This document shows, in pieces, positions 2,141 through 63,860 of a DNA stretch of 64,000 bases. Below the pieces are notes generated by a model. It searched no databases and was not told where the DNA came from. It saw only the letters and a list, made by a program, of their open reading frames with translations. The DNA is from Bacteroidales bacterium. GTDB taxonomy: Bacteria > Bacteroidota > Bacteroidia > Bacteroidales > UBA932. Location of the stretch: assembly GCA_017428325.1 (NCBI GenBank), contig JAFRRA010000002.1, positions 310,001 to 374,000 on the forward strand. Reading direction: 5' to 3'. Every line of letters starts with the position of its first letter. The first letter of the stretch is position 1. Both the position numbers and the translations under genes were made by a program.

Positions 2141-3463
2141 CTATTTTCTTATCACGACAGAATCCTGGACCTCTCCGTTTCGGTCCAGAAGGGTGAGGGC
2201 AATGGAGTTTTTGTCCACTTCCATGAGCATTGCGCCGACAGTCCTGCCACCTTCACTCCATCGCTTTGCGATAATGTCCTGGTTATACTCCTGTTCCTTC
2301 ATCTCGACTCCTCTCTCGTTGTCCGAGGACGGAGTCTGGACATAAACGGTAGGAAGGTTCTGGCTTCTTACATAGATGTGGTTGTTTGCCCCAAGGGCAA
2401 GGTCCACCCCATACTCCTCAAACAGGTCTTTCCACCGTCTTAGCTGGCTTGTCTTGCCGTTCTCGCCGAAGAACCACTGGTAATGCTCGCATACGACCTT
2501 GAACTTGGCGTTGCTGGCCTTGAGGACTTCACGGGTCCATTCCTGGGCCTTTGCCAGGCCTGTGCTGTCCCTCATGCTCTCGCTGTTGAGCATCACGAAC
2601 AGGACGTTCCCGTAGGTAAAATGGTAGCACACTCCTTCCTCTCCCTCATATCCGTTAAGGGGATTGGCGGTAGCGTTGCGGAAATAATCGTTTGTGAGCT
2701 GGTATTTGCGGCTCATGTTGTCGTGATTACCGTTAAGGCCCGCCCACATATAGTTTTTGAAAGCGTCCTGGCGGTACATTTCCTTCCAGAAAGACCAGCT
2801 TCCGCCCCAGGCGCACACGTCCCCGAGGTGAAGCACCCAGTCGAATCCCCGCCCAGTCTCCTTTTCAGCATAGACGTTGACAGTTTTCACCATATTCATC
2901 GCGGAGACAAGTCTTTTCGGAAGAGGCGGATAGCTGTGGAAATCGGAAATTACGCAGGCGCTCCAGGTCTTCCTGCCAGCAGTCTTGAAAGTGTGGATGT
3001 CCGATGAGACGTAGTGCATTATCTCATAGTTGTCTTTGTAAGACGCCACTATCCAGTAGTCATATCTGGTGTCCGGCTTTAGGTTGGTGAACGAGCAGCT
3101 GAACTTGTGGAATACGGCATCCTCATAGAAATTCTCCCCGTTGGCCTTCTTGGAATAGATACTGTCGAATACTGTGCAGAGATTCTCGTCGGAAGCGATG
3201 AGCCTGTATCCGCCCACGGAGCGCTTCTTGCGGCTGGAAACCAGATAGACATAGCATTCGGAAATGTCCTTGTCTGCTGCAAAACTTACGTTCATCTGTG
3301 TGGAGCAGTCTTCTCCAGGGCAGGTGTTTACGCTGAAAATATAGGCTCCTGAAGAGTCGAGGCTGACAGGTATATCGCCTGACCTTGACTGGGAAAAGGC
3401 AAAGGTCCCGGTCAACAGAAGCGCGGCTGATAGAAGGACTGCTAGGGAGGAGAACTTTTTCAT
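2141..3463 (-). CDS. Secreted calcineurin-like metallophosphoesterase (purple acid phosphatase-like)
   Basis: The 440-residue product has a signal peptide (MKKFSSLAVLLSAALLLTG, cut after FAFS). An N-terminal fibronectin-like domain runs to about residue 140. The C-terminal metallophosphoesterase domain carries the ordered metal-ligand motifs DFHSYP, HLGDVC, GLNGNHDN, CEHYQW and NNHIY. This is the layout of purple-acid-phosphatase-like enzymes that hydrolyse phosphomonoesters or diesters outside the cytoplasm; the last motif is NNH rather than the usual GHxH. The open frame extends 53 codons upstream, but that extension lacks a secretion signal and crosses the promoter box at 3485-3492, so the MKKF start is chosen. 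The substrate is unknown. Confidence 0.82.
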   Translation of the reverse strand: MKKFSSLAVLLSAALLLTGTFAFSQSRSGDIPVSLDSSGAYIFSVNTCPGEDCSTQMNVSFAADKDISECYVYLVSSRKKRSVGGYRLIASDENLCTVFDSIYSKKANGENFYEDAVFHKFSCSFTNLKPDTRYDYWIVASYKDNYEIMHYVSSDIHTFKTAGRKTWSACVISDFHSYPPLPKRLVSAMNMVKTVNVYAEKETGRGFDWVLHLGDVCAWGGSWSFWKEMYRQDAFKNYMWAGLNGNHDNMSRKYQLTNDYFRNATANPLNGYEGEEGVCYHFTYGNVLFVMLNSESMRDSTGLAKAQEWTREVLKASNAKFKVVCEHYQWFFGENGKTSQLRRWKDLFEEYGVDLALGANNHIYVRSQNLPTVYVQTPSSDNERGVEMKEQEYNQDIIAKRWSEGGRTVGAMLMEVDKNSIALTLLDRNGEVQDSVVIRK

Positions 3464-3472
3464 ATCGCTGAG
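3464..3472 (+). repeat. Polar 9-mer ATCGCTGAG, copy overlapping a gene start region
   Basis: One of 14 copies of ATCGCTGAG in the window. Plus-strand copies start at 369, 3464, 11591, 14752, 15526, 27965, 31069, 34012, 40883, 46904, 49760 and 58647. Reverse copies start at 24394 and 28041. This copy lies in the untranslated leader of the minus-strand phosphoesterase gene, so codon choice does not explain it. About half a copy would be expected by chance in 64 kb on both strands at even base composition. Confidence 0.6.
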
Positions 3473-3484
3473 GATTTGTCCTTT

Positions 3485-3492
3485 CAAAGATA
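3485..3492 (-). promoter_or_regulatory. -7 promoter box (TATCTTTG) for the phosphoesterase gene
   Basis: Minus-strand TATCTTTG matches TAnnTTTG and sits 21 bases upstream of the chosen ATG. It is back to back with the plus-strand box at 3500-3507, only seven bases away, so the two divergent promoters must share DNA and may compete. Confidence 0.55.
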
Positions 3493-3499
3493 ATTCAAA

Positions 3500-3507
3500 T
3501 AGTTTTG
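3500..3507 (+). promoter_or_regulatory. -7 promoter box (TAGTTTTG) for the lipoprotein/S9 peptidase genes
   Basis: Matches TAnnTTTG 28 bases before the ATG at 3536. It probably drives the run of plus-strand genes from the lipoprotein through the small membrane proteins ending at 7270. Confidence 0.5.
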
Positions 3508-3535
3508 CTAAATTGCAGAAAATATCCCAAACGTT

Positions 3536-4084
3536 ATGAAAGCAACCAGATTCTTCGCTGCAGCGGCCCTTTGCCTTGCCGCCTTCGTCTACTCCTGCAA
3601 AAACAACGGGCAGAACGCCCAAGACACCGGAAAGCTTACCCCAGATTACGTAAAGCAGAGGGTAGAGAATATGATGAAGTATAATCCGATTATGGCCGCT
3701 GACATGCCAAAGCTCTTTACAGCCAGGATACTGGATCTGTACAAGAGAGTAAAGGAGGCCGAGGAGAATGCTCCTGCAGGTTATATGGATTTCAGCTGGA
3801 CCGGGAAAGTGTTTGACGTCTGCTGCGAGGATTCAACCAAGAGAGTTGTAAGTCTCAAGGATGTCCGCATCACGGGAGAACGCACAGCAGAGGCCGATAT
3901 GAATTATGTGGATCCTCCTTGCTACAACATAGATTACACCCTTCTTCTGTTATTTGACGGGGACGAGTGGTATATAGACGATATCTTATGGAAAAGGAAT
4001 CCGGAGCTGGAGGATTCCGTTGACGTTTTGGAAAGCCAGGAAGCGGAGGGTTTCATTGAAGAACAGAAAGAGAGCAACCAATAA
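3536..4084 (+). CDS. Lipoprotein, DUF3828-like
   Basis: The 182-residue product begins with a lipoprotein signal: a hydrophobic run, then the lipobox VYSC, with Cys21 as the likely lipidation site. The mature part (YVKQRVENMM..., then strands around a DGDEWYIDDI segment) has the alpha-then-beta pattern of small Bacteroidota DUF3828-type lipoproteins of NTF2-like fold. No catalytic residues are evident. The acidic, Glu/Ser-rich tail (from about residue 155) looks disordered. It ends one base before the ATG of the S9 peptidase, so the two are almost certainly co-transcribed. Family assignment is tentative; lipoprotein status is clear. Confidence 0.72.
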   Translation: MKATRFFAAAALCLAAFVYSCKNNGQNAQDTGKLTPDYVKQRVENMMKYNPIMAADMPKLFTARILDLYKRVKEAEENAPAGYMDFSWTGKVFDVCCEDSTKRVVSLKDVRITGERTAEADMNYVDPPCYNIDYTLLLLFDGDEWYIDDILWKRNPELEDSVDVLESQEAEGFIEEQKESNQ

Positions 4085-4085
4085 G

Positions 4086-6512
4086 ATGAAGAAGATATTT
4101 GTTTCCGCCTTATGCCTTCTGGCCTCGGCGATTTCATATTCCCAGACAGTTACAACAGTAGACAAATTCAATTACGCTGGCCCTTACAAGGTCTCTTCCC
4201 CTTTGTTTGAGACAAAGGACGCCAAGGGAAAGGCGTTTGACCGCAAGAGCCTTATGGATGCGGCTCCGCTGAAGGCAAAGCAGACAACGGAAATTGCAGC
4301 CGGGGCCATTCCAGCTTCAGAGGGCAGTAGTGTAGGGGTTTTCTCTTTCTTTGTCAATGACTTGAATTTCAAGAAGGTGGATGTTGAGATCAAGGGAGCC
4401 AGGAACTTCAAGGCATATCTCGACGGCAAGGAAAGCCCGCTTAAGGGACTCAAGCTGGATCCGAAGCAGCACCGCATAGACATAAAGGTGCTCAGCGAAG
4501 GGGAAGGCAAGGATTCATTGTTTGTGAATCTGAAATCAGACAGCGAGGTAGCCTGGACCCTGTCTCCGAAGCACTATTTTGGGATGGACGAGGTGCTTTA
4601 CGGGGAGAAACTCGGCTCCGCCAGCATTTCGGAGGACGGAAAGTATATAATTGCAAGCTATTCGGATACTGACCGCAAGGCCAAGACCACACGTAAGACC
4701 CAGCTCAGGGAAATCGCTACGGGAAATGTCATAAGGGAAAAGGCCGGCATTTTCTGGCTGAACGGCGGAAACGAATATGCCTGGTATGAAACCGTTGACG
4801 GCAACCGCAAGCTCTACAAGGCTACCGTTGGCGGACCGGATGAACTTGTCGCCGAGAATCTTCCCAAGGGCAATCTGTTCTTGTCACCTGACATGAAGTT
4901 CATGATAGTGGGAGAACAGGCGGAAGGTCCCAAGGAAGACGTCGACGTCTATCAGATCCTGGATCCGGACGACAGGCAGCCTGGCTGGAGAGACCGTACC
5001 TACATGAGCTATTACGACCTGGAAACCGGTGGCCTCAGAAGGCTTTCCTTCGGAAGCAAGGCGGTTTATCCTATGGACATATCCGACGACTCCAGATACC
5101 TTCTTGCCGGAATCCGCAACCTTCAGGTCCAGAAAAGGCCGTCACACAGCACGGATGTCTGCATCGTTGACCTTGAGACCTGGGCCGTAGACACTGTCAT
5201 CCGTGGCGACGGTTTCCTTTCACGGGCGATGTTCTCTCCTGACGGCAAGAGCCTTCTTGTCCTTGGATCTCCTGAAACCTTCGGCGGAATAGGTAACATG
5301 ACACCGGGACAGACTCCGAATATGTATGATATCCAGATGTACATTTTTGATATCGCCAGCCGCTCGGCAAGATGCCTTACCAGGGATTTTGACCCATCCA
5401 TAGACGGAGTGGTATGGAACCGGAAGGACGGAAAGATATATGCAGGAGCCACAGAAGGGGAATACGGGACATTGTACGTATTTGACCCTAAGGACGGTAA
5501 GCACCGGAAACTTAGCCAGATACCAGAGGTTGTTACAGGCTGGAACCTTCCTGAAAAAGGACAGACGATGTGCTATGTGGGAGGCGGAGCGTCTTCTCCT
5601 TCAAAGCTGTATGTCAAGGATGTGAAGAAGGACAAGGATATACTCTGGGAAGACGTTTCATCACAGAAGTATGAAGATGTGATTATGGGTGAGTGCCAAC
5701 CTTGGAGCTTTACCAACCGCCTCGGCGACGAGATCCAGGGAAGGTTCTATCTTCCTCCGGGATTCGACCCTGAGAAGAAATACCCTATGATTGTCAACTA
5801 CTATGGCGGATGTACCCCGATAACCCGTTCGCTTGAAAGCCGCTACCCGCAGCAATACTATGCTTCTCTGGGCTATGTGGTTTATGTGATCCAGCCTAGC
5901 GGGGCCATAGGTTTCGGCCAGAAGTTCTCCGCCCGCCACGTGGAGACCTGGGGAGACTTTGTAGCCGACGACATTATCGAGGGAGTTAAGAAATTCTGCG
6001 AGGCCCATCCATTTGTCAATGCAGAGAAAATAGGCTGTATTGGCGCCAGTTACGGAGGCTTTATGACACAGTACCTCCAGACCAAGACAGACATATTCGC
6101 CTGCGCGGTTTCACACGCCGGAATCAGCAATATAGCAAGCTATTGGGGAGAAGGATACTGGGGCTATTCATACGGTCATGTGGCAAGCGCGGAGAGCTAT
6201 CCGTGGAACAATCCGGACATGTATACAAAGCATTCCCCGCTGTTCAATGCGGATAAGATCCACACTCCGCTGCTGCTCCTTCACGGCTCTGCAGATACCA
6301 ACGTGCCTCACATAGAGAGCATCCAGATGTTCACGGCTCTCAAGATACTGGGACGGGAAGTGGCGTTCGTGGAAGTCAAGGGAGAGAACCACTGGATTCT
6401 GGATTATCCCAAGAGAATAAAATGGAGCAACACCATTATGGCGTGGTTCCAGAAATACCTGAAGGACGACCCTTCCTGGTGGGACAGTATGTATCCGGAG
6501 AAAAACCTTTAG
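4086..6512 (+). CDS. S9 family serine peptidase (dipeptidyl-peptidase IV/prolyl-oligopeptidase type)
   Basis: The 808-residue product has a signal peptide (MKKIFVSALCLLAS, cut after SYS). An extra N-terminal beta-rich segment runs to about residue 155. A beta-propeller with WD-like 'SPDGK/SDDSRY' repeats follows (about 170-520), then a C-terminal alpha/beta-hydrolase. The catalytic triad is readable: Ser655 in GASYGG, Asp737 in GSADTNVP and His769 in GENHWIL. Such enzymes trim proline-containing peptides in the periplasm and support amino-acid use by gut Bacteroidota. An upstream in-frame ATG at 4020 lies inside the lipoprotein gene and gives no signal peptide, so the start at MKKIF is preferred. 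The next gene follows three bases after the stop. Confidence 0.9.
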   Translation: MKKIFVSALCLLASAISYSQTVTTVDKFNYAGPYKVSSPLFETKDAKGKAFDRKSLMDAAPLKAKQTTEIAAGAIPASEGSSVGVFSFFVNDLNFKKVDVEIKGARNFKAYLDGKESPLKGLKLDPKQHRIDIKVLSEGEGKDSLFVNLKSDSEVAWTLSPKHYFGMDEVLYGEKLGSASISEDGKYIIASYSDTDRKAKTTRKTQLREIATGNVIREKAGIFWLNGGNEYAWYETVDGNRKLYKATVGGPDELVAENLPKGNLFLSPDMKFMIVGEQAEGPKEDVDVYQILDPDDRQPGWRDRTYMSYYDLETGGLRRLSFGSKAVYPMDISDDSRYLLAGIRNLQVQKRPSHSTDVCIVDLETWAVDTVIRGDGFLSRAMFSPDGKSLLVLGSPETFGGIGNMTPGQTPNMYDIQMYIFDIASRSARCLTRDFDPSIDGVVWNRKDGKIYAGATEGEYGTLYVFDPKDGKHRKLSQIPEVVTGWNLPEKGQTMCYVGGGASSPSKLYVKDVKKDKDILWEDVSSQKYEDVIMGECQPWSFTNRLGDEIQGRFYLPPGFDPEKKYPMIVNYYGGCTPITRSLESRYPQQYYASLGYVVYVIQPSGAIGFGQKFSARHVETWGDFVADDIIEGVKKFCEAHPFVNAEKIGCIGASYGGFMTQYLQTKTDIFACAVSHAGISNIASYWGEGYWGYSYGHVASAESYPWNNPDMYTKHSPLFNADKIHTPLLLLHGSADTNVPHIESIQMFTALKILGREVAFVEVKGENHWILDYPKRIKWSNTIMAWFQKYLKDDPSWWDSMYPEKNL

Positions 6513-56631: not shown

Positions 56632-56639
56632 TATATTTG
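56632..56639 (+). promoter_or_regulatory. -7 promoter box (TATATTTG) for the DUF47 operon
   Basis: Matches TAnnTTTG 28 bases before the ATG at 56668 and 25 bases after the last repeat of the upstream operator-like cluster. No -33 TTG at 19-21 spacing, which fits a promoter needing an activator. Confidence 0.55.
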
Positions 56640-56667: not shown

Positions 56668-57327
56668 ATGGGGTTGACTGAGATATTTTCAAGAAAATCG
56701 GCGAGGCTGGAGAAGAGTATCGGGGGCTTGATGGAGACCGTGGACCAGTCTCTCCTGGTGTTCAGGGAGGGAGTCAAGAACTATCTGTACGGGGATGATG
56801 AGAGTTTTGCCGAGAATCTTGGCAAAATGGCATCTCTGGAGACAGAGGCATCTTCCCGAATCAAGGAAATCGAGAATATTCTTTACTCAAGGGGGTATCT
56901 GATCCGTTCCAGGGGAGATATTATGAGGCTTTTGGAGAGGTTCGACCATATCTTCATTATCATCAGCACAGACCTCATCCAGTTTGAGATCGAGTCTCCT
57001 AAGATTCCGCAAGAGCTGAAACGTGAGTTTGTCAAGCTCAGCGAACTGGCCGCAATGGCAGCTGAAAGCACGATTCCGGGGACCAACGCTTATTTCACTT
57101 CCCCGAAAAATGTGGCTGAAACGACCGCTCAGGTATATTTCTACGAAAAGGAAGCCGTGAAGCTCAGCCAGTCAATCAAGAGAACTGTTTTCCACGATAT
57201 GGATAACCTCAAGCTCAGCGAGAAGTTCCACCTAAGGTATTTTGCGCTGCATATCGAGGATCTTTCAAAAGCAGCGGTGAAAGTTGCCGAGCAGCTTTCC
57301 GTAATGACAATCAAAAGGGCCCTGTAA
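56668..57327 (+). CDS. DUF47/PhoU-like protein
   Basis: The 219-residue all-helical protein matches DUF47 (PhoU-like), with evenly spaced acidic residues for metal clusters and segments such as KMASLETEASSRIKEIE and LLERFDHIFIIIS. In many bacteria a DUF47 gene sits directly before a PiT phosphate transporter gene and adjusts it. Here the partner slot is taken by a membrane protein with an HTH, zero bases apart. A longer frame from a TTG at 56593 is rejected because the promoter box lies inside it. Confidence 0.8.
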   Translation: MGLTEIFSRKSARLEKSIGGLMETVDQSLLVFREGVKNYLYGDDESFAENLGKMASLETEASSRIKEIENILYSRGYLIRSRGDIMRLLERFDHIFIIISTDLIQFEIESPKIPQELKREFVKLSELAAMAAESTIPGTNAYFTSPKNVAETTAQVYFYEKEAVKLSQSIKRTVFHDMDNLKLSEKFHLRYFALHIEDLSKAAVKVAEQLSVMTIKRAL

Positions 57328-58932
57328 ATGGATTGCATCCTGTACATAGTAATCTCTGTCCTGTTTGCCGGAACATTCATGATTATGCTGGAACTGCCTT
57401 TTGTGAGCGGTTCCTTGCTTGCTTCCGGAGCGGGGGAGAGGATTGCCGTCAGGATTCTTGCACCGCTTCTTCTGCTTGGAGGACTCTGTGTTCCGGTTTT
57501 CTGGCCGGAGTATTTCAAACAGATGACAGACGGGCTCCTTGCAACTGATTCCATTGCCAACATATTGCCAGTAGGTATTGCCACAGCCGTCTCGGCTATG
57601 GCAGTGAGGGGCTTCAGCCGCTATGTAGCAGTACCTTTTGCTTTCATAGCCGCACTGGCGGGCCTTGGGCTTGCAGAAGGGAATGCAATTAAAATAGGTG
57701 AGGCGCTGCCTTATATTATTTCCTGGACTGCGGCGCCGCTTCTTTGCGCGCTGTTTTCCGCAATGGTCTATACTCTGTTTGCTGCCTGGCACAAAAGGCG
57801 CAACACCCATATGGCGCTTATGGAAGCCAGAATGCTGGCTGCTTCCACTGTTGCCGCTCTCTTTTTGATACCTTTGTTCGCATTGAACAATTCCCTGATA
57901 TTCAATTATCTCCCATCCGGACTCGGTTACAGGGCGGCTGTTGTGGCCTGTGGCTGTGCACTTGTGATATGGCCGGTAGTGAGGAGGCTTGCGGTCTTCA
58001 CCAAGTGGAACATCGCGGATTATGAGCTTGACACAAATCCTCAATCCGTTTTCAGCCTTATGGCGGGGATGATTCTCTGCTTTGCGCTGTTTACAAGCTC
58101 TCTTCCGGGCAAGGTTGGGCTGGCTGCAACTCCTCTTCCTGCAGGAACTCTCTATATTGCCGCTTTGGCTGGAATCAGTGTCTGCAGCCGCAGAACCCTA
58201 ACTGACGGTCCTGAAATCATTAAGGGAGCGGTAGCTATGTATCTTTCCCCGCTGCTGGCCCTGCTTCTGGCTTATTGCCTTGGAAGGATAATGGACGGGG
58301 AGATAATGGGAACCCTGATTGTTCTGGGAATCATTCTGCTTGCAGCCGGAATCGCTGTTTTTATCAGACATCAAAGCCGTATTCTGGTGGATCAGCAGAT
58401 TGCCAGAGCCCACGAGCAGCAGGTATATTCTACGAGGAAATCCCTTTCCGCTCTGGAGGTCAGGGCGGAAATGACAGAGAAAGATCTTCTCAACAAGCTG
58501 GACCTCAAGCGAAAGGAACTAGTTGACTTTGCTGTTGGCATCAGCGACCAGAAAGATTTTATGGAGAGTGTTTATGAGCAGCTGAAAGACGTTCGCTCTT
58601 CCAGGGATGGGGCGGAGAAGGACGCCAGGACTGATTCCCTGCTGAGATCGCTGAGGGAAAGGATGTATTTTACAAGGGAGATGAACGATTTCTACGCCCG
58701 CAGCGAAGAACTCCACAAGGACTTCAACGAGCGGCTGGCGGAAAGTTTCCCGAACCTTACTGAAAACGAGAGGAAGCTGGCCAACCTGCTAAGGCAGGGA
58801 TTTTCCAGCAAGTATATCGCATCGCTGATGAATATTACTCCCAAGAGTGTAGAAATAAACCGCTATCGCCTCAGGGCCAAACTGGGCCTGACACGCAGCG
58901 AAAACCTTATAAATTTCATTAAATCAATTTAA
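57328..58932 (+). CDS. Polytopic membrane protein with a LuxR-type HTH (PiT-like sensor?)
   Basis: The 534-residue product has about ten membrane segments in residues 1-350. A coiled coil follows (about 355-470), then a LuxR/GerE helix-turn-helix at 477-534 (LTENERKLANLLRQGFSSKY...). The membrane part echoes PiT phosphate carriers: RYVAVPFAFIAALAGLGLA in the place of LPxSxxHALVGAxxGxGL, then PYIISWTAAPLLCALFSAMVY like the ISPxxG segment. The usual GANDxxNA and Ser-Ser/Thr-His transport motifs are degenerate. I infer a former transporter turned receptor, reading phosphate and acting directly on DNA. The HTH and topology are clear; the PiT link is tentative. Confidence 0.65.
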   Translation: MDCILYIVISVLFAGTFMIMLELPFVSGSLLASGAGERIAVRILAPLLLLGGLCVPVFWPEYFKQMTDGLLATDSIANILPVGIATAVSAMAVRGFSRYVAVPFAFIAALAGLGLAEGNAIKIGEALPYIISWTAAPLLCALFSAMVYTLFAAWHKRRNTHMALMEARMLAASTVAALFLIPLFALNNSLIFNYLPSGLGYRAAVVACGCALVIWPVVRRLAVFTKWNIADYELDTNPQSVFSLMAGMILCFALFTSSLPGKVGLAATPLPAGTLYIAALAGISVCSRRTLTDGPEIIKGAVAMYLSPLLALLLAYCLGRIMDGEIMGTLIVLGIILLAAGIAVFIRHQSRILVDQQIARAHEQQVYSTRKSLSALEVRAEMTEKDLLNKLDLKRKELVDFAVGISDQKDFMESVYEQLKDVRSSRDGAEKDARTDSLLRSLRERMYFTREMNDFYARSEELHKDFNERLAESFPNLTENERKLANLLRQGFSSKYIASLMNITPKSVEINRYRLRAKLGLTRSENLINFIKSI

Positions 58933-58960: not shown

Positions 58961-60328
58961 ATGCGTAAAACATTATTATTACTGGCGATTTCAGTTCTGG
59001 CAGTCCAGACAGTATTCGCCCAGGAGAACGTAAAGCGCAACCAGTACGGAGTAGCCGTCAAGTCAGACAGACTGGACGTTGAGGCTCAGGACGGTATTTT
59101 GGTGCTTGAATCTCCTACCAGCGCCTACAAGCTCTGGTTCGACACCCGTATCCAGGCTGACGGAGCAGTATTCTTCGGTCAGGACAAGGATTATGACAAG
59201 ATCGGTAACGCAACCAGCATCCGCCGCGCACGTTTTGCCATCAAGGGACAGCTTAACGAGCAGTGGTATGGTGAGTTCGATATGGACCTTGCAGACGGTC
59301 TGGTAGAACTTAAGGACGCTATCGTACGCTACACCGGAGTTCCAAACCTGGATCTTCAGGCAGGTAACTTCAAGGAGAACTTCTCAATCCAGCGTAACAC
59401 CACTTCCCGTTACCTGCAGTTCATGGAAAGGCCTATGGTTACTTCAGCTCTGGCTCCAAGCCGTCATCTCGGTATCAACGCCAAGTATGCAAAGGACTGG
59501 TTCTGGGGATCTCTCGGTGCTTTCACACAGGAAGTTGCAGGTGCAGAGGAAGAAGGTTATGTAAAGGATAACAACAAGGACTATGGCCGCAACACCGGAT
59601 ACTCAATCACCGGTAAGGTTGTATTCCGCCCTCTCTACAAGATGCAGGACGCAAGTCTCCACATCGGTTTTGCAGGATCTTACCGCAGGGCTCTGACCAG
59701 CGTAGACCCTAAGGAATTCGGAACATATCGCGCAAGCGCACGTAACTCTACAAGCCTCAACCGCAAGAAGTACATCGACACCGACGCGCTTCCTGGATTT
59801 TCCCACAATTTCCTGTGGACAATAGAGGTTGCCGGACATTATCAGGGACTCCGTTATGAGACCGCCTATATCGGTGACAATGTTCATTTCCACAAGAGCG
59901 TTGCTGACAACAAGACCAAGAACTTTGGCGGTTGGTATGCACAGGCAGGTTACCTTCTGTTCGGCGGAAGCCAGAACTATGACGCAAATGGTGGCAAGTA
60001 CACCAAGGTAAACCGTGGCCAGAAGTGGGGCGATATCGAGCTTTGCGCACGTTACGAGTATTGCGACCTCAACAACGCCAACATTTACGGTGGCGCTGCA
60101 GAGGCTTATACAGTAGGTCTGAACTGGCTGGTTAACAATAATGTGAAGATTATGATCAACTACCAGTACAACAACAATGACCGTTATGCAAACGGCAAGG
60201 GCAAACTCTTTGTTGGCCACGATGCCGCCGGAAAACCAACCAAGGACTACACCAAGGTTGTAGAGGGTAACAGGAAAGCAGGCGTTGACTACCATATGCT
60301 TGCTATCCGTTTTGAGGTTGACTTCTAA
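58961..60328 (+). CDS. OprO/OprP-type porin
   Basis: The 455-residue outer-membrane barrel has a signal peptide (cut after VFA). It has the Porin_O_P hallmarks RRARFAIKGQLNEQWYGEFDMD, QAGNFKENFSIQRNTTSRYLQFMERP and a C-terminal aromatic strand IRFEVDF. Pseudomonas OprP is phosphate-specific; Bacteroidota homologues are often assumed to be so without proof. Here the DUF47 neighbour strengthens a phosphate role. It follows the membrane-HTH gene by 28 bases. Confidence 0.87.
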   Translation: MRKTLLLLAISVLAVQTVFAQENVKRNQYGVAVKSDRLDVEAQDGILVLESPTSAYKLWFDTRIQADGAVFFGQDKDYDKIGNATSIRRARFAIKGQLNEQWYGEFDMDLADGLVELKDAIVRYTGVPNLDLQAGNFKENFSIQRNTTSRYLQFMERPMVTSALAPSRHLGINAKYAKDWFWGSLGAFTQEVAGAEEEGYVKDNNKDYGRNTGYSITGKVVFRPLYKMQDASLHIGFAGSYRRALTSVDPKEFGTYRASARNSTSLNRKKYIDTDALPGFSHNFLWTIEVAGHYQGLRYETAYIGDNVHFHKSVADNKTKNFGGWYAQAGYLLFGGSQNYDANGGKYTKVNRGQKWGDIELCARYEYCDLNNANIYGGAAEAYTVGLNWLVNNNVKIMINYQYNNNDRYANGKGKLFVGHDAAGKPTKDYTKVVEGNRKAGVDYHMLAIRFEVDF

Positions 60329-60342
60329 AATTGATACAGATT

Positions 60343-61158
60343 ATGAAAAAGATATTTTTAGCCGCATTCGCAGCATTGTTTGCATTCAGTTCATGTGTTA
60401 AGGATGAAATGTATCCTTACCCTACAATAGCTGACATATCCAATACCATCGCATACGATGAGACAGAGGATGTAACTGTTACAGCTACTGTTACTGCATT
60501 TGTCGACATCCAGGAGGTTAATCTTTTCTACAAGACTGGCAGCTCAGCAGCCCAGAAAGTCAAGATGACCGCATCCGGAAGCACTTATACCGGTATCATT
60601 CCTGCCCAGCCAATGGGTACTGAGGTTACCTATTACATTGAGGCCACTACTGATGGCGGAACAACCACTTCACCGGAAGGCAAGTACACTGTAGGAGTGA
60701 TTCCTATCGACTTTACTCCTTTGAAGCTCAACGAGCTTAACGGAAACGACAAGTTCATCGAGATTATCAACACAGGTTCTGCTCCTATCAACATCAAGGG
60801 CATCAAGATTTTCAAGGATACCAAGGATGTATGGACAGGCCCTAACCGCGAGCTTGCAGCAGGTGCATTCCTTCTTCTCTATAGCGAGGATGTTACCGGT
60901 GCTGGCGGAAAGCATGAAGGCTATGACTCAGAACTCGTGTTCACTTCAGGTCTGAGTGCAAAGAAAGCCGTAAGGGTACAGCTCACCGATCCTGTCAAGA
61001 AAGATCTGGACGACTTCAACCTTGTAACCGTATCCAAGACAGCTCCGGCTTCCTACAGCCGCGTACCAGATGGGACAGGCAAGTGGTTCTTCACCCCTGC
61101 AACTCCAGGCATAAAGAACTCTACAGACAATACCGATCCTGTAACCGGACTTATGTAA
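60343..61158 (+). CDS. Lipoprotein with a lamin-tail (LTD) domain
   Basis: The 271-residue lipoprotein has lipobox FSSC. An Ig-like domain follows (about 25-115, VTVTATVTAFVDIQEVNLFYK), then an LTD domain (about 125-255) with LKLNELNGNDKFIEIINTGSAP and FLLLYSED. LTD domains are often found in secreted nucleases or phosphatases and bind ligands or nucleic acids; no enzyme motif is present here. A frame from a TTG 12 bases earlier is possible, but the ATG is preferred. It lies 14 bases after the porin. Confidence 0.8.
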   Translation: MKKIFLAAFAALFAFSSCVKDEMYPYPTIADISNTIAYDETEDVTVTATVTAFVDIQEVNLFYKTGSSAAQKVKMTASGSTYTGIIPAQPMGTEVTYYIEATTDGGTTTSPEGKYTVGVIPIDFTPLKLNELNGNDKFIEIINTGSAPINIKGIKIFKDTKDVWTGPNRELAAGAFLLLYSEDVTGAGGKHEGYDSELVFTSGLSAKKAVRVQLTDPVKKDLDDFNLVTVSKTAPASYSRVPDGTGKWFFTPATPGIKNSTDNTDPVTGLM

Positions 61159-61175
61159 TTTTAATATTCGACAAT

Positions 61176-61814
61176 ATGGCAGAATTAAAAATCGGTGAAA
61201 TAAGCAAACCGCGCTTTGAATTCCGCAGCTTCGGCCAGTGTTTCTGCGAGGCTCACAAGAGAATGGCACGTCTTTCCGCTCCTGTTCCCGAGAAGGTTTG
61301 GGAGAGGCAAAGTGATGAAATATATATCATTTCCGCAAAGAACGACATCAACAACACCAAGATCCGCGACGGCAAGATGGACATCAAGACTTTTGTCCAA
61401 AGTGTCGACGGTCTTGAGCAGTGGAACCCTCTGATGAAGGGAGAATTCCCAATCAGCCGCGAGGTTCTGGAGAAGGAAGTTTTCCCTGCTTTCATGGTCG
61501 AGATGCCTGCTCTGACGAAAGACACCTACACTTACGATGAATTCATAGAGATGGTTAAGGCCAATCCGGACCTTGCTGCAGTGAGGGTTCACAAGCAGCG
61601 TTTCGGCTATATGGTCAACGGTACCATCTGCGAGGTGGGCAATGTTCTGATTAACGGAGCAAAGGTTGTTACCATCAACTCCGAGTCTACCGAGATAGAG
61701 GATATCAAGAAGACCATTAAGGACGTGGGTCTCGAGGGTGTTGAGAACATCAACTACCTCCAGGCTATCAAGCGCGTTATCGGAATGAGTGACAAACCTT
61801 TAGCAAACGAATAA
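61176..61814 (+). CDS. Divergent CYTH-like protein of unknown function
   Basis: The 212-residue protein has no signal peptide. Its pattern of long charged strands (RFEFRSF, DEIYIIS, TKIRDGKMDIKTFVQ, AAVRVHKQRFGYMVNG and VTINSESTEIED) recalls the eight-stranded tunnel of CYTH/triphosphate-tunnel enzymes, with alternating Lys, Arg and Glu. The N-terminal ExExK is not present in standard form. It is followed two bases later by a standard CYTH gene, which supports a paired role. The frame opens 31 codons earlier, inside the lipoprotein gene; MAELK is the natural start. Confidence 0.6.
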   Translation: MAELKIGEISKPRFEFRSFGQCFCEAHKRMARLSAPVPEKVWERQSDEIYIISAKNDINNTKIRDGKMDIKTFVQSVDGLEQWNPLMKGEFPISREVLEKEVFPAFMVEMPALTKDTYTYDEFIEMVKANPDLAAVRVHKQRFGYMVNGTICEVGNVLINGAKVVTINSESTEIEDIKKTIKDVGLEGVENINYLQAIKRVIGMSDKPLANE

Positions 61815-61815
61815 A

Positions 61816-62286
61816 ATGGCACAGGAAATAGAACGCAAATTCTTGGTCAAGGGCGACTTCAAGGATGCCGCTTTCAAGGCCACCCGCATTACCCAGGGCT
61901 ATCTCAGCAGCGTGCCTGAGAGAACCGTAAGGGTAAGGGTCAAGGGAGACAAGGGCTTCATAACCATCAAGGGCATAGGTTCCGACAGCGGAGCCAGCCG
62001 TTTCGAGTGGGAGAAGGAAATCCCTGTTTCCGAGGTTCAGGACCTGCTTAAGATATGCGAGCCTGGTGTCATCGACAAGACCCGCTATCTGGTAAAGGCC
62101 GGTGAACACACCTTCGAGGTAGACGAGTTCTACGGAGACAACGAGGGTCTTACCGTAGCCGAGGTTGAGCTAGGAAGCGAGAGCGAGGCTTTCGTAAAGC
62201 CTGAATGGTTGGGTGAGGAAGTCACTGGAGATGTGAAGTATTACAACTCCATGCTGATGAAGAACCCGTACAAGAACTGGAAGTAA
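61816..62286 (+). CDS. CYTH-domain protein (inorganic triphosphatase-like)
   Basis: The 156-residue protein is a single CYTH (triphosphate tunnel metalloenzyme) domain. It starts with the EIERKFLV (ExExK) signature and continues with RTVRVRVKGDKGFITIK, FEWEKEIP, DKTRYLV, EVDEFYGD and VAEVELG, i.e. all tunnel strands. Bacterial relatives hydrolyse tripolyphosphate or nucleoside triphosphates. It would fit polyphosphate handling in this phosphate-related run. The stop overlaps the next ATG by one base. Confidence 0.88.
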   Translation: MAQEIERKFLVKGDFKDAAFKATRITQGYLSSVPERTVRVRVKGDKGFITIKGIGSDSGASRFEWEKEIPVSEVQDLLKICEPGVIDKTRYLVKAGEHTFEVDEFYGDNEGLTVAEVELGSESEAFVKPEWLGEEVTGDVKYYNSMLMKNPYKNWK

Positions 62287-63860
62287 TGGATGTTCTGGAC
62301 CTGAACAACTATAAGATCGAGAAGCTGCCGAAGATGCAGAAATCCGGTTTCGAGCGGACCATGCAGCGCTTCGGCGGCCCTCTCGCTATCTTGGTGTTCA
62401 TCCTGTTGTATTACGTTGTCAAGATTTCGTTCCTGGACAATCTTGACACCAGTTCCCTCTCCGGTGCGGCGCTGAAGCGTTTCAATGAGCTTGGGCTTGA
62501 CGGTTTCATCAGGGCGAACTATGCCATGCTGGCCATCTTTGTGGCGGCGATAGTGCTCTGGATCACCGAGGCCATACCTAACTATCTGACCTCGCTCATT
62601 GTCATACTCGCGATAGTGCTGACCAACATCACCACGGACAAGACGGCCTACGCCCAGCTTGGACATCCGGTGATGTGGCTGAACATACTCTCGTTCGTGC
62701 TGGCTTCTATGCTTGTCAAGACACAGGTAGCCAAGAGGTTTGCCCTGTGGTTCGTGATCAAGTTCGGCAAGAGCGCCGGAGGCGTGATTTTCAGCTTCAT
62801 CATCATCAACCTGGTCCTGTCCGCTTTCATATCGGCGACAACTGCAAAGGCTGCCATCCTTCTCCCGATTATGATGGTTATTTGCGCCATTTACGGAGCG
62901 ACTGGCGGAGAGCACCGCAACAACTTTGGACGTAACCTGATGCTCCAGAACCTCTTCCAGATCAACCTGGGAGCCAACGCCTTCCTTACCGGATCCGGTG
63001 CGACCCTGCTTGCAGGATCCCTGATTGCCGGAGCGCTTGGCATCGGTTCCTTCAGTTATCAGGACTGGTTCAAGGCGGCTTTCCCTATGAACGTTCTCCT
63101 CATTTTGATCGGCTGGTTCGTTGGAACCAAGATAATCTTCAGGATGAAGAAAGAGGAGAAGAAGCCTCAGATTGAAGGTGGTATGGAAAGGCTCCGCGAT
63201 GAGCTCAAGGCTATGGGCAAGATGAAGGGAATCGAGTACAGGGCTATCGCGATCTTCCTTTGCGTGCTGATTCTCTGGGCAACCGACAAGCAGCACGGCA
63301 TTAACCAGACGGCTGTTGCCTTCCTGGGTGCCGTTGTGGCCCTGATGCCTAGAATCGGCATTGTCAAGTGGAACGACGTGGACATTCCTTGGCATCTCCT
63401 CCTCTTCTCGGCCGGAGCCTATACCCTGGGAGCAGGTCTGGACGCTACAGGTCTTCCCGGAACTGCTGTCAATGCGGCATTCGCATCAATGGGAATCACG
63501 GCACAGACTCCATATTGGGCTCTGTACATGATTCTTACGAGTACGATGCTGCTCAGCGCCCTGATTTTCCAGAGCAAGACTATGCAGACGCTCATCTTTG
63601 TTCCTATAGCTATTGGTGTTGCACAGAGTTTCGGTTATCCGGTAATGAGCCTGGCCTTCCCGATCGCTATGCTGGTAGGGCACGTTTACGTGCTTCCTTT
63701 CAACAGTAAGCCGGCCGCCCTGCTCTACACCACCAACCAGTACGGCTGGAGCGACACTTTCAAGTTCGGAATAACGATGATGTTCATCAGCTGGCTGATG
63801 ATACTTCTCTGGGGCCAGACCGTACTGCACTGGTTCGGCTATACCCCAGGACTTTTTTAA
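62286..63860 (+). CDS. DASS/SLC13-family sodium-anion symporter
   Basis: The 524-residue inner-membrane carrier has an extended soluble N-terminus (about 1-35) and roughly 12 membrane segments. It shows SLC13 features such as LWITEAIPNYLTSLIVILAIVL, AFISATTAKAAILLPIMMV and a late TKP-like region, NSKPAALLYTTNQYG. DASS proteins take up dicarboxylates, sulfate or phosphate with sodium; the anion is not readable. It is directly coupled to the CYTH gene. Phosphate is a possibility given the context, dicarboxylate the alternative. Confidence 0.83.
   Translation: MDVLDLNNYKIEKLPKMQKSGFERTMQRFGGPLAILVFILLYYVVKISFLDNLDTSSLSGAALKRFNELGLDGFIRANYAMLAIFVAAIVLWITEAIPNYLTSLIVILAIVLTNITTDKTAYAQLGHPVMWLNILSFVLASMLVKTQVAKRFALWFVIKFGKSAGGVIFSFIIINLVLSAFISATTAKAAILLPIMMVICAIYGATGGEHRNNFGRNLMLQNLFQINLGANAFLTGSGATLLAGSLIAGALGIGSFSYQDWFKAAFPMNVLLILIGWFVGTKIIFRMKKEEKKPQIEGGMERLRDELKAMGKMKGIEYRAIAIFLCVLILWATDKQHGINQTAVAFLGAVVALMPRIGIVKWNDVDIPWHLLLFSAGAYTLGAGLDATGLPGTAVNAAFASMGITAQTPYWALYMILTSTMLLSALIFQSKTMQTLIFVPIAIGVAQSFGYPVMSLAFPIAMLVGHVYVLPFNSKPAALLYTTNQYGWSDTFKFGITMMFISWLMILLWGQTVLHWFGYTPGLF

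Follow-up and report, generated by a model that had tools for sequence, protein, structure and literature searches.

The window, by which we mean the whole 64,000-nucleotide stretch of DNA analysed here, encodes directly downstream of a DUF47 gene a protein that is likely to be a PiT-derived, membrane-tethered one-component regulator activating transcription of the DUF47-fusion-porin operon to which it belongs. The initial annotation had described a multi-helix membrane part joined to a LuxR-type HTH in one ORF, starting zero bases after the DUF47 gene and followed by an OprO/P porin, and coordinates and domain searches agree with that description. The fusion ORF (57328-58932, 534 aa) begins with the base that directly follows the DUF47 stop codon (56668-57327). 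A hydropathy scan gives 11 hydrophobic segments, the last at residues 328-346, after which comes a linker presumed, from the look of its sequence, to be a coiled coil. The HTH at residues 476-528 matches Pfam GerE (PF00196) with 30.6 bits (cut-off 23.5), and a signalling output domain thus lies within the same ORF as the transporter-derived part. The upstream ORF matches Pfam DUF47/PhoU_div (PF01865) with 27.7 bits (cut-off 24.4) and is probably a PitR-type accessory of PiT; the gene 3′ of the fusion matches Pfam Porin_O_P with 146.5 bits. The gaps between the DUF47, fusion, porin and lipoprotein genes are 0, 28 and 2 bases, the last counted from the listed TTG start of the lipoprotein ORF, with an ATG 12 bases further on. 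The conserved 212-aa protein that follows gave no Pfam match in the scanned part (61278-61811) and is 80-98% identical within the window's family. The features of the locus are collected in Table 1.

Table 1. Features of the fusion locus, in window coordinates
Feature	Position	Strand	Remark
Candidate operator site 1, AACTCTACAA	56531..56540	+	all four copies fall within 75 bp
Candidate operator site 2, AACCCTACAA	56553..56562	+	within 15-bp perfect inverted repeat shared with site 3
Candidate operator site 3, AACCCTACAA	56583..56592	-	inverted-repeat partner of site 2
Candidate operator site 4 (promoter-proximal), AACTCTACAA	56596..56605	+	
Promoter-like box TATATTTG	56632..56639	+	matches TAnnTTTG
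DUF47 / PhoU_div protein, 219 aa	56668..57327	+	PF01865 over cut-off
Fusion, membrane domain (residues 1-350)	57328..58377	+	PiT-derived; most near-invariant PiT residues lost
Fusion, linker (residues about 351-475), presumed coiled coil	58378..58752	+	linkers of other Bacteroidales HTH proteins match
Fusion, LuxR/GerE-type HTH (residues 476-528)	58753..58911	+	GerE over cut-off
OprO/P-type porin	58961..60328	+	28 bp after fusion; adjoins fusion in 31/31 loci
Lipoprotein (probable), lamin-tail domain (LTD)	60331..61158	+	after porin in 29/31 loci
Conserved 212-aa protein	61176..61814	+	conserved neighbour
CYTH-domain protein	61816..62286	+	conserved neighbour
SLC13-type (Na_sulph_symp) transporter	62286..63860	+	conserved neighbour

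The PiT likeness of the membrane region, suggested earlier from alignment by eye, is supported by profile-profile comparison. On its own, the window protein matches Pfam PF01384 (PHO4) with 17.5 bits at residues 100-195, below the cut-off of 33.7. An hhalign comparison of 27 window-type membrane domains (26 distinct) with 23 ordinary PiTs, however, scores 98.2% with an E value of 5.4e-14 over 317 columns, and the best E value among the controls (six column shuffles, one reversed alignment and an SLC13 alignment) was 0.078. Furthermore, a profile built from 25 fusion homologues finds TmPiT (PDB 6L85) at E 2.3e-4, the first part of the fusion profile aligning with the last part of TmPiT. Together, the sequence profiles and the sequence searches of solved structures, on which this assignment is based, indicate that the membrane domain is PiT-derived and homologous over nearly its whole length to the PiT family (PF01384, SLC20; TmPiT 6L85). 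Unlike members of that family, the window protein scores below the cut-off, lacks most of the near-invariant residues and has gained a linker and an HTH.

The transport motifs, which had been called degenerate, are indeed largely gone. We took as near-invariant the 23 columns that are at least 95% conserved in 42 PiTs; in an alignment that is uncertain at such distance, and worst at the N-terminus, the window protein keeps 5 of the 23, window-type proteins 5-11 and intermediate fusions 5-10, while 19 intact fusions, which were themselves in the column-defining set, keep 22-23. Throughout the 27 window-type sequences, the first PiT motif has lost its G and N; the PVST motif has kept its S in 5 of them and the PVSST motif in 8. 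Because most signature residues have been lost, the window protein is unlikely to be a transceptor, the word first used for it, in the strict sense of a protein that both transports and signals, and phosphate may no longer be bound by it. Transport has probably been lost in the window lineage, leaving what would be a receptor and not a transceptor, and relatives with complete motifs appear to be the better transceptor candidates. Alternatively, the membrane part might still transport an anion via an altered site, with the HTH reporting flux. The full-length PiT-like topology, the purifying selection described below and the retention of five PiT columns in at least 23 of the 27 sequences agree with such a transporter, whereas the fate of the first motif and of the two serines, together with a Na/Pi cotransporter encoded in the window genome, argues against it, and we consider it quite improbable.

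The window genome (89% complete) gave no PF01384 match and no PstB over cut-off, and the cotransporter is a single gene, matched as two stretches of one ORF. Across the window's family, 35 of the 38 genomes examined encode the Na/Pi cotransporter. All 24 window-type genomes have another phosphate carrier: this cotransporter in 22, and a PiT other than the fusion in the last two. Intact-fusion genomes also own another phosphate carrier, so that this presence offers no contrast with the window type. We rejected a takeover by another PiT as the route to motif loss: another PiT over cut-off is rarer in window-type genomes (4/24) than in intermediate (7/9) or intact-fusion ones (4/5).

Selection was assessed from dN/dS ratios, for which some gene pairs share a member and some are near saturation. 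Over 15 pairs of window-type genes the ratio is 0.04-0.26 for the membrane domain and 0-0.09 for the HTH; it is 0.02-0.06 for DUF47 (11 pairs) and 0.03-0.06 for the membrane domain of intact fusions (four pairs). These values show that the window-type fusion is under purifying selection and suggest that it is still a working protein. Fusion genes interrupted by a stop codon were seen in two genomes, G477 (locus L106) and G075 (L152), and one intermediate fusion (L110) is shortened to 439 aa. The broken gene of G477 and the short one of L110 could be taken to mean that the fusion is decaying, on its way to loss, but with ratios well under 1 in all 15 pairs and a near-invariant HTH, decay is disfavoured and seems to us very improbable. 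Identity along the window gene is itself mosaic. Compared with the related locus L031, it is 95-97% over 56701-57600, 67-74% over 57601-58500, 84% in the 300 bp after 58500 and 95-96% from 58801, while L031 and L032 share 68-85% identity as far as about 57900, then 96-97% across 57901-58500. The pattern suggests allele exchange inside the fusion membrane domain.

The same ratios bear on what the sensor is. It is conceivable that the membrane part is a mere anchor, the soluble DUF47 protein sensing the signal, binding the linker and controlling the HTH, while the PiT fold drifts with nothing bound. DUF47 is indeed held at 0.02-0.06 while the membrane domain reaches 0.26, and at one locus (L201, genome G117, 3126-5343) a 212-aa protein made of one helix, a linker and an HTH, without a PiT domain, still precedes an OprO/P porin. 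That stretch, however, shows no DUF47 gene either, which speaks against a sensor made of DUF47 alone. For an anchor one helix would be enough, yet 11 hydrophobic segments are kept both in the window protein and in a distant member of its clade, and W133, N187, P269 and G282 are invariant across 25 aligned fusion sequences; we therefore regard a mere anchor as unlikely and favour the PiT-derived domain as part of the sensor. The idea of a one-protein sensor, put forward initially, may nevertheless be wrong, because DUF47 is conserved about as strictly as the HTH; judging from this constraint, DUF47 probably belongs to the sensor. At L201, the porin is accompanied by a gene resembling that of the lipoprotein and by a homologue of the gene for the conserved 212-aa protein of Table 1, and one motif copy lies on the opposite strand between the HTH gene and the porin.

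The fusion is not an assembly accident, because it is encoded, in full or in part, at 31 related loci from a set of named genomes, with 40-82% identity. The named near relatives of the window genome are Bacteroidales assemblies, mainly from rumen or other ruminant stomachs, and the fusion occurs among rumen Bacteroidales and their relatives. The initial annotation had named a fusion not conserved beside DUF47 genes as one outcome that would speak against it; we looked for this, and found DUF47 upstream in 29 of the 31 loci, the records of the other two beginning inside the fusion. The porin is downstream in every locus, the lipoprotein gene is present in 29, and CYTH and SLC13 genes are both present in 24; we take the other missing neighbours to reflect record ends for most. 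In the window's family, a full-length match of at least 690 bits is found in 25 of 299 genomes, the window's own counted. Among 18 family loci picked to span the scores (two apparently identical to L043 and L052, one with a broken fusion and one with an assembly gap), the order DUF47-fusion-porin holds in 18 and CYTH-SLC13 in 16.

A search for further PiT-HTH fusions, as the initial annotation had advised, found them, including in five genomes of the window's family that have complete PiT motifs and the same gene order (L107, L108, L111, L112 and L113); the intact-domain fusions of this family score 183-184 bits against PF01384. Intermediate fusions (L100-L105, L109 and L110) occur in the family as well. 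In samples of the order (198 and 99 genomes), G062, G075 and G086 gave strong PF01384 and HTH matches in one ORF. The proteins of L002 and L004-L008 show, by eye, the PiT motif regions followed by one helix, a linker and an HTH, and seven intact fusions of other families match Pfam PHO4 with 189-220 bits, all with an HTH signal, GerE being over cut-off in five and under it in L004 and L008. The full intact fusion P0003 is matched at E <= 1e-40 by 26 of 295 genomes of the order: 14 encode PiT and HTH in one ORF, 10 a PiT that lacks the HTH or is cut, and the remaining two are G075, with both parts split by a stop, and G206, an intermediate. Within flanks of about 1.5 kb, DUF47 adjoins 16 and the porin 13 of 16 order-level fusion loci, one of which (L162) is cut before the HTH. 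Outside the order, a PiT-HTH query was run against 395 phylum genomes at E <= 1e-20, with three candidates from each genome scored; 320 genomes gave no match, and among the matches listed none covered both domains.

From other classes, the ordinary PiTs most similar to the fusions have DUF47 beside them in 12 of 12 cases and a porin in 11 of 12. For same-subfamily ordinary PiTs in the order the counts are 10/10 and 1/10, and for main-type PiTs (n=32) DUF47 appears in one flank and the porin in none. Because the ordinary PiTs nearest the fusions also adjoin both genes, the DUF47-PiT-porin trio seems to predate the HTH. A quick tree without bootstrap, built from the last 185 residues of 63 sequences (18 window-type, 8 intermediate, 19 intact and 18 other HTH proteins), places the window type in one clade (SH-aLRT 100), the main fusions on one side of a branch (SH-aLRT 98) and the intact, intermediate and degenerate forms of the window's family together (SH-aLRT 86). 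The PiT motif losses may represent one event or several. The fusions of L160, L161 and L164 fall among other linker-HTH proteins in this tree and are considered possibly independent in origin, while the data do not reject one clade that unites every fusion (p-AU 0.151); two of these three loci have the main promoter motif described below.

Upstream of DUF47 lies a conserved element, (A)CTCTACAA, whose CTCTACA core in site 4 of the window begins 34 bp upstream of a -7-like box that matches TAnnTTTG, which we take to be the Bacteroidales -7 promoter element. CTCTACA is found upstream of DUF47 in 37 of 42 family loci, many of them near-identical and one a duplicate, with 93 copies vs 1.26 expected in shuffles. 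After thinning to 42 fusion loci, no 8-mers are more frequent than ACTCTACA and AACTCTAC (27 loci each), and the pattern [AC][CT]CTACA[AT] occurs in 34 (24/30 in the window's family, 10/12 in other families; shuffled mean about 2). It is present in two of four loci of a second fusion type and in one of 22 ordinary DUF47-PiT loci (shuffled mean 0.8). Given 34 of 42 fusion loci against one of 22 ordinary loci, the element tracks the HTH, not PiT or DUF47; these counts are not independent events, since the loci are related by descent. The main motif is absent from 6/30 loci of the window's family and 2/12 elsewhere. In these eight loci and L160, an ACTACA variant was seen upstream of DUF47 in L101, L102, L156, L159 and L160, and a ACTTTACA variant in L103 (two copies), L104 and L113 (one each), the sole copy of L104 being a distant variant; L110 had neither main motif nor variant there. 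Variants of this kind, which stand where CTCTACA is otherwise found, may go along with changes in the HTH.

The arrangement of the sites is also regular in part. Across 22 loci, 27 of 38 site-to-site distances are 11, 22, 43, 54-55 or 65-66 bp, spacings that often appear to differ by helical turns. In 12 of 19 window-type loci, 34 bp separate the proximal site from a TAnnTTT[GA] box; the distance is 44 bp in one further locus, 55-56 bp in four and 21 bp in L060, and in L052 no box matching this pattern lies close to the proximal site. The intact and intermediate loci of the window's family follow this spacing rule poorly: of five with the motif, one has a box at 84 bp and four have none. With the looser site CTACA[AT], 18 order-level and remaining loci (DUF47 starts estimated from tblastn) place the box at 68-70 bp in six and 161-166 bp in eight; three of the 18 are without a box and the others have it at different distances. 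In the window genome, the exact pattern AACYCTACAA has 20 matches, four of them at the fusion locus, vs three for a reversed-pattern control. The 16 matches elsewhere are not clustered; 14 lie inside longest ORFs, one of these being the porin gene of the fusion locus, and two beside promoter-like sequence. No wider regulon was found in the window genome with this one exact pattern, which would miss degenerate sites. Copies of AACTCTACA also occur at window positions 59744, inside the porin gene, and 61117, inside the lipoprotein gene.

We propose that the former transporter and its DUF47 partner form the sensory part, and that the last helix and the linker pass its state to the LuxR-type HTH, the fusion probably acting as a dimer. 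The HTH would bind the array of CTCTACA sites that precedes the DUF47 gene and would activate, rather than repress, the DUF47-fusion-porin genes as a single operon, so that more OprO/P porin is produced when the signal demands it; the candidate sites are placed as for an activator that would meet RNA polymerase from one helix face. With only 28 bp between the fusion and porin genes, a single operon would increase sensor, DUF47 and porin alike. The signal would be phosphate or a phosphate-linked state of DUF47, and phosphate itself is our best guess, favoured by a modest margin over other signals. DUF47, PiT fold and HTH would then carry out a PitR/PitA-like phosphate response without a kinase. 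In the broadest reading, to which we give an even chance, PiT-LuxR HTH proteins would be a new class of bacterial transceptor, acting on a phased operator array before their own DUF47-PiT-porin operon and replacing a two-component phosphate system, with the window's family showing the passage from a transporter with HTH to a pure receptor at one locus. Complete, intermediate and degenerate PiT orthologues at one locus of one family make this change directly testable, and the phased operator offers a ready reporter assay.

Among the papers listed in open-access literature searches aimed at it, we found no earlier description of a PiT-HTH fusion. Membrane-bound one-component regulators of the ToxR/CadC type likewise tether a DNA-binding domain to the membrane, but with a single helix and a periplasmic sensor in place of a polytopic transporter fold. 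To our knowledge, the bacterial transceptors known so far signal via a fused kinase and a separate regulator; the fusion chain ends in a DNA-binding domain, and therefore phosphate sensing could run from membrane to promoter in one step.

PitR of S. aureus, the partner of PitA, is described as setting a phosphate response with its cognate transporter (PMC13170248). The accessory gene there lies directly beside the PiT-type gene, as at the fusion locus, and we equate PitR, tentatively, with the DUF47 type; its output, however, runs via the PhoPR two-component system, whereas the fusion carries the HTH on the transporter chain itself (PMC13170248). The same text places Bacteroidota among the taxa with genomes where neither PhoP nor PhoR was identified (PMC13170248), and the fusion may explain how some Bacteroidota regulate phosphate uptake. 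The closest known kinds are the transporter-kinase fusions Ks-Amt5 and CbrA. Ks-Amt5 joins an ammonium transporter domain to a histidine kinase; like the fusion it represents a transporter recruited as a sensor, and it is described as binding its ligand without translocating it, but it belongs to another transporter family and has a kinase output, where the fusion ends in a DNA-binding domain (PMC5764959). CbrA, described in a preprint, is an SLC5-STAC-histidine kinase transceptor that shares with the fusion the union of transporter and signalling in one chain and a small partner encoded upstream, and differs in its SLC5 fold, its kinase output and its action through CbrB (PMC13022988).
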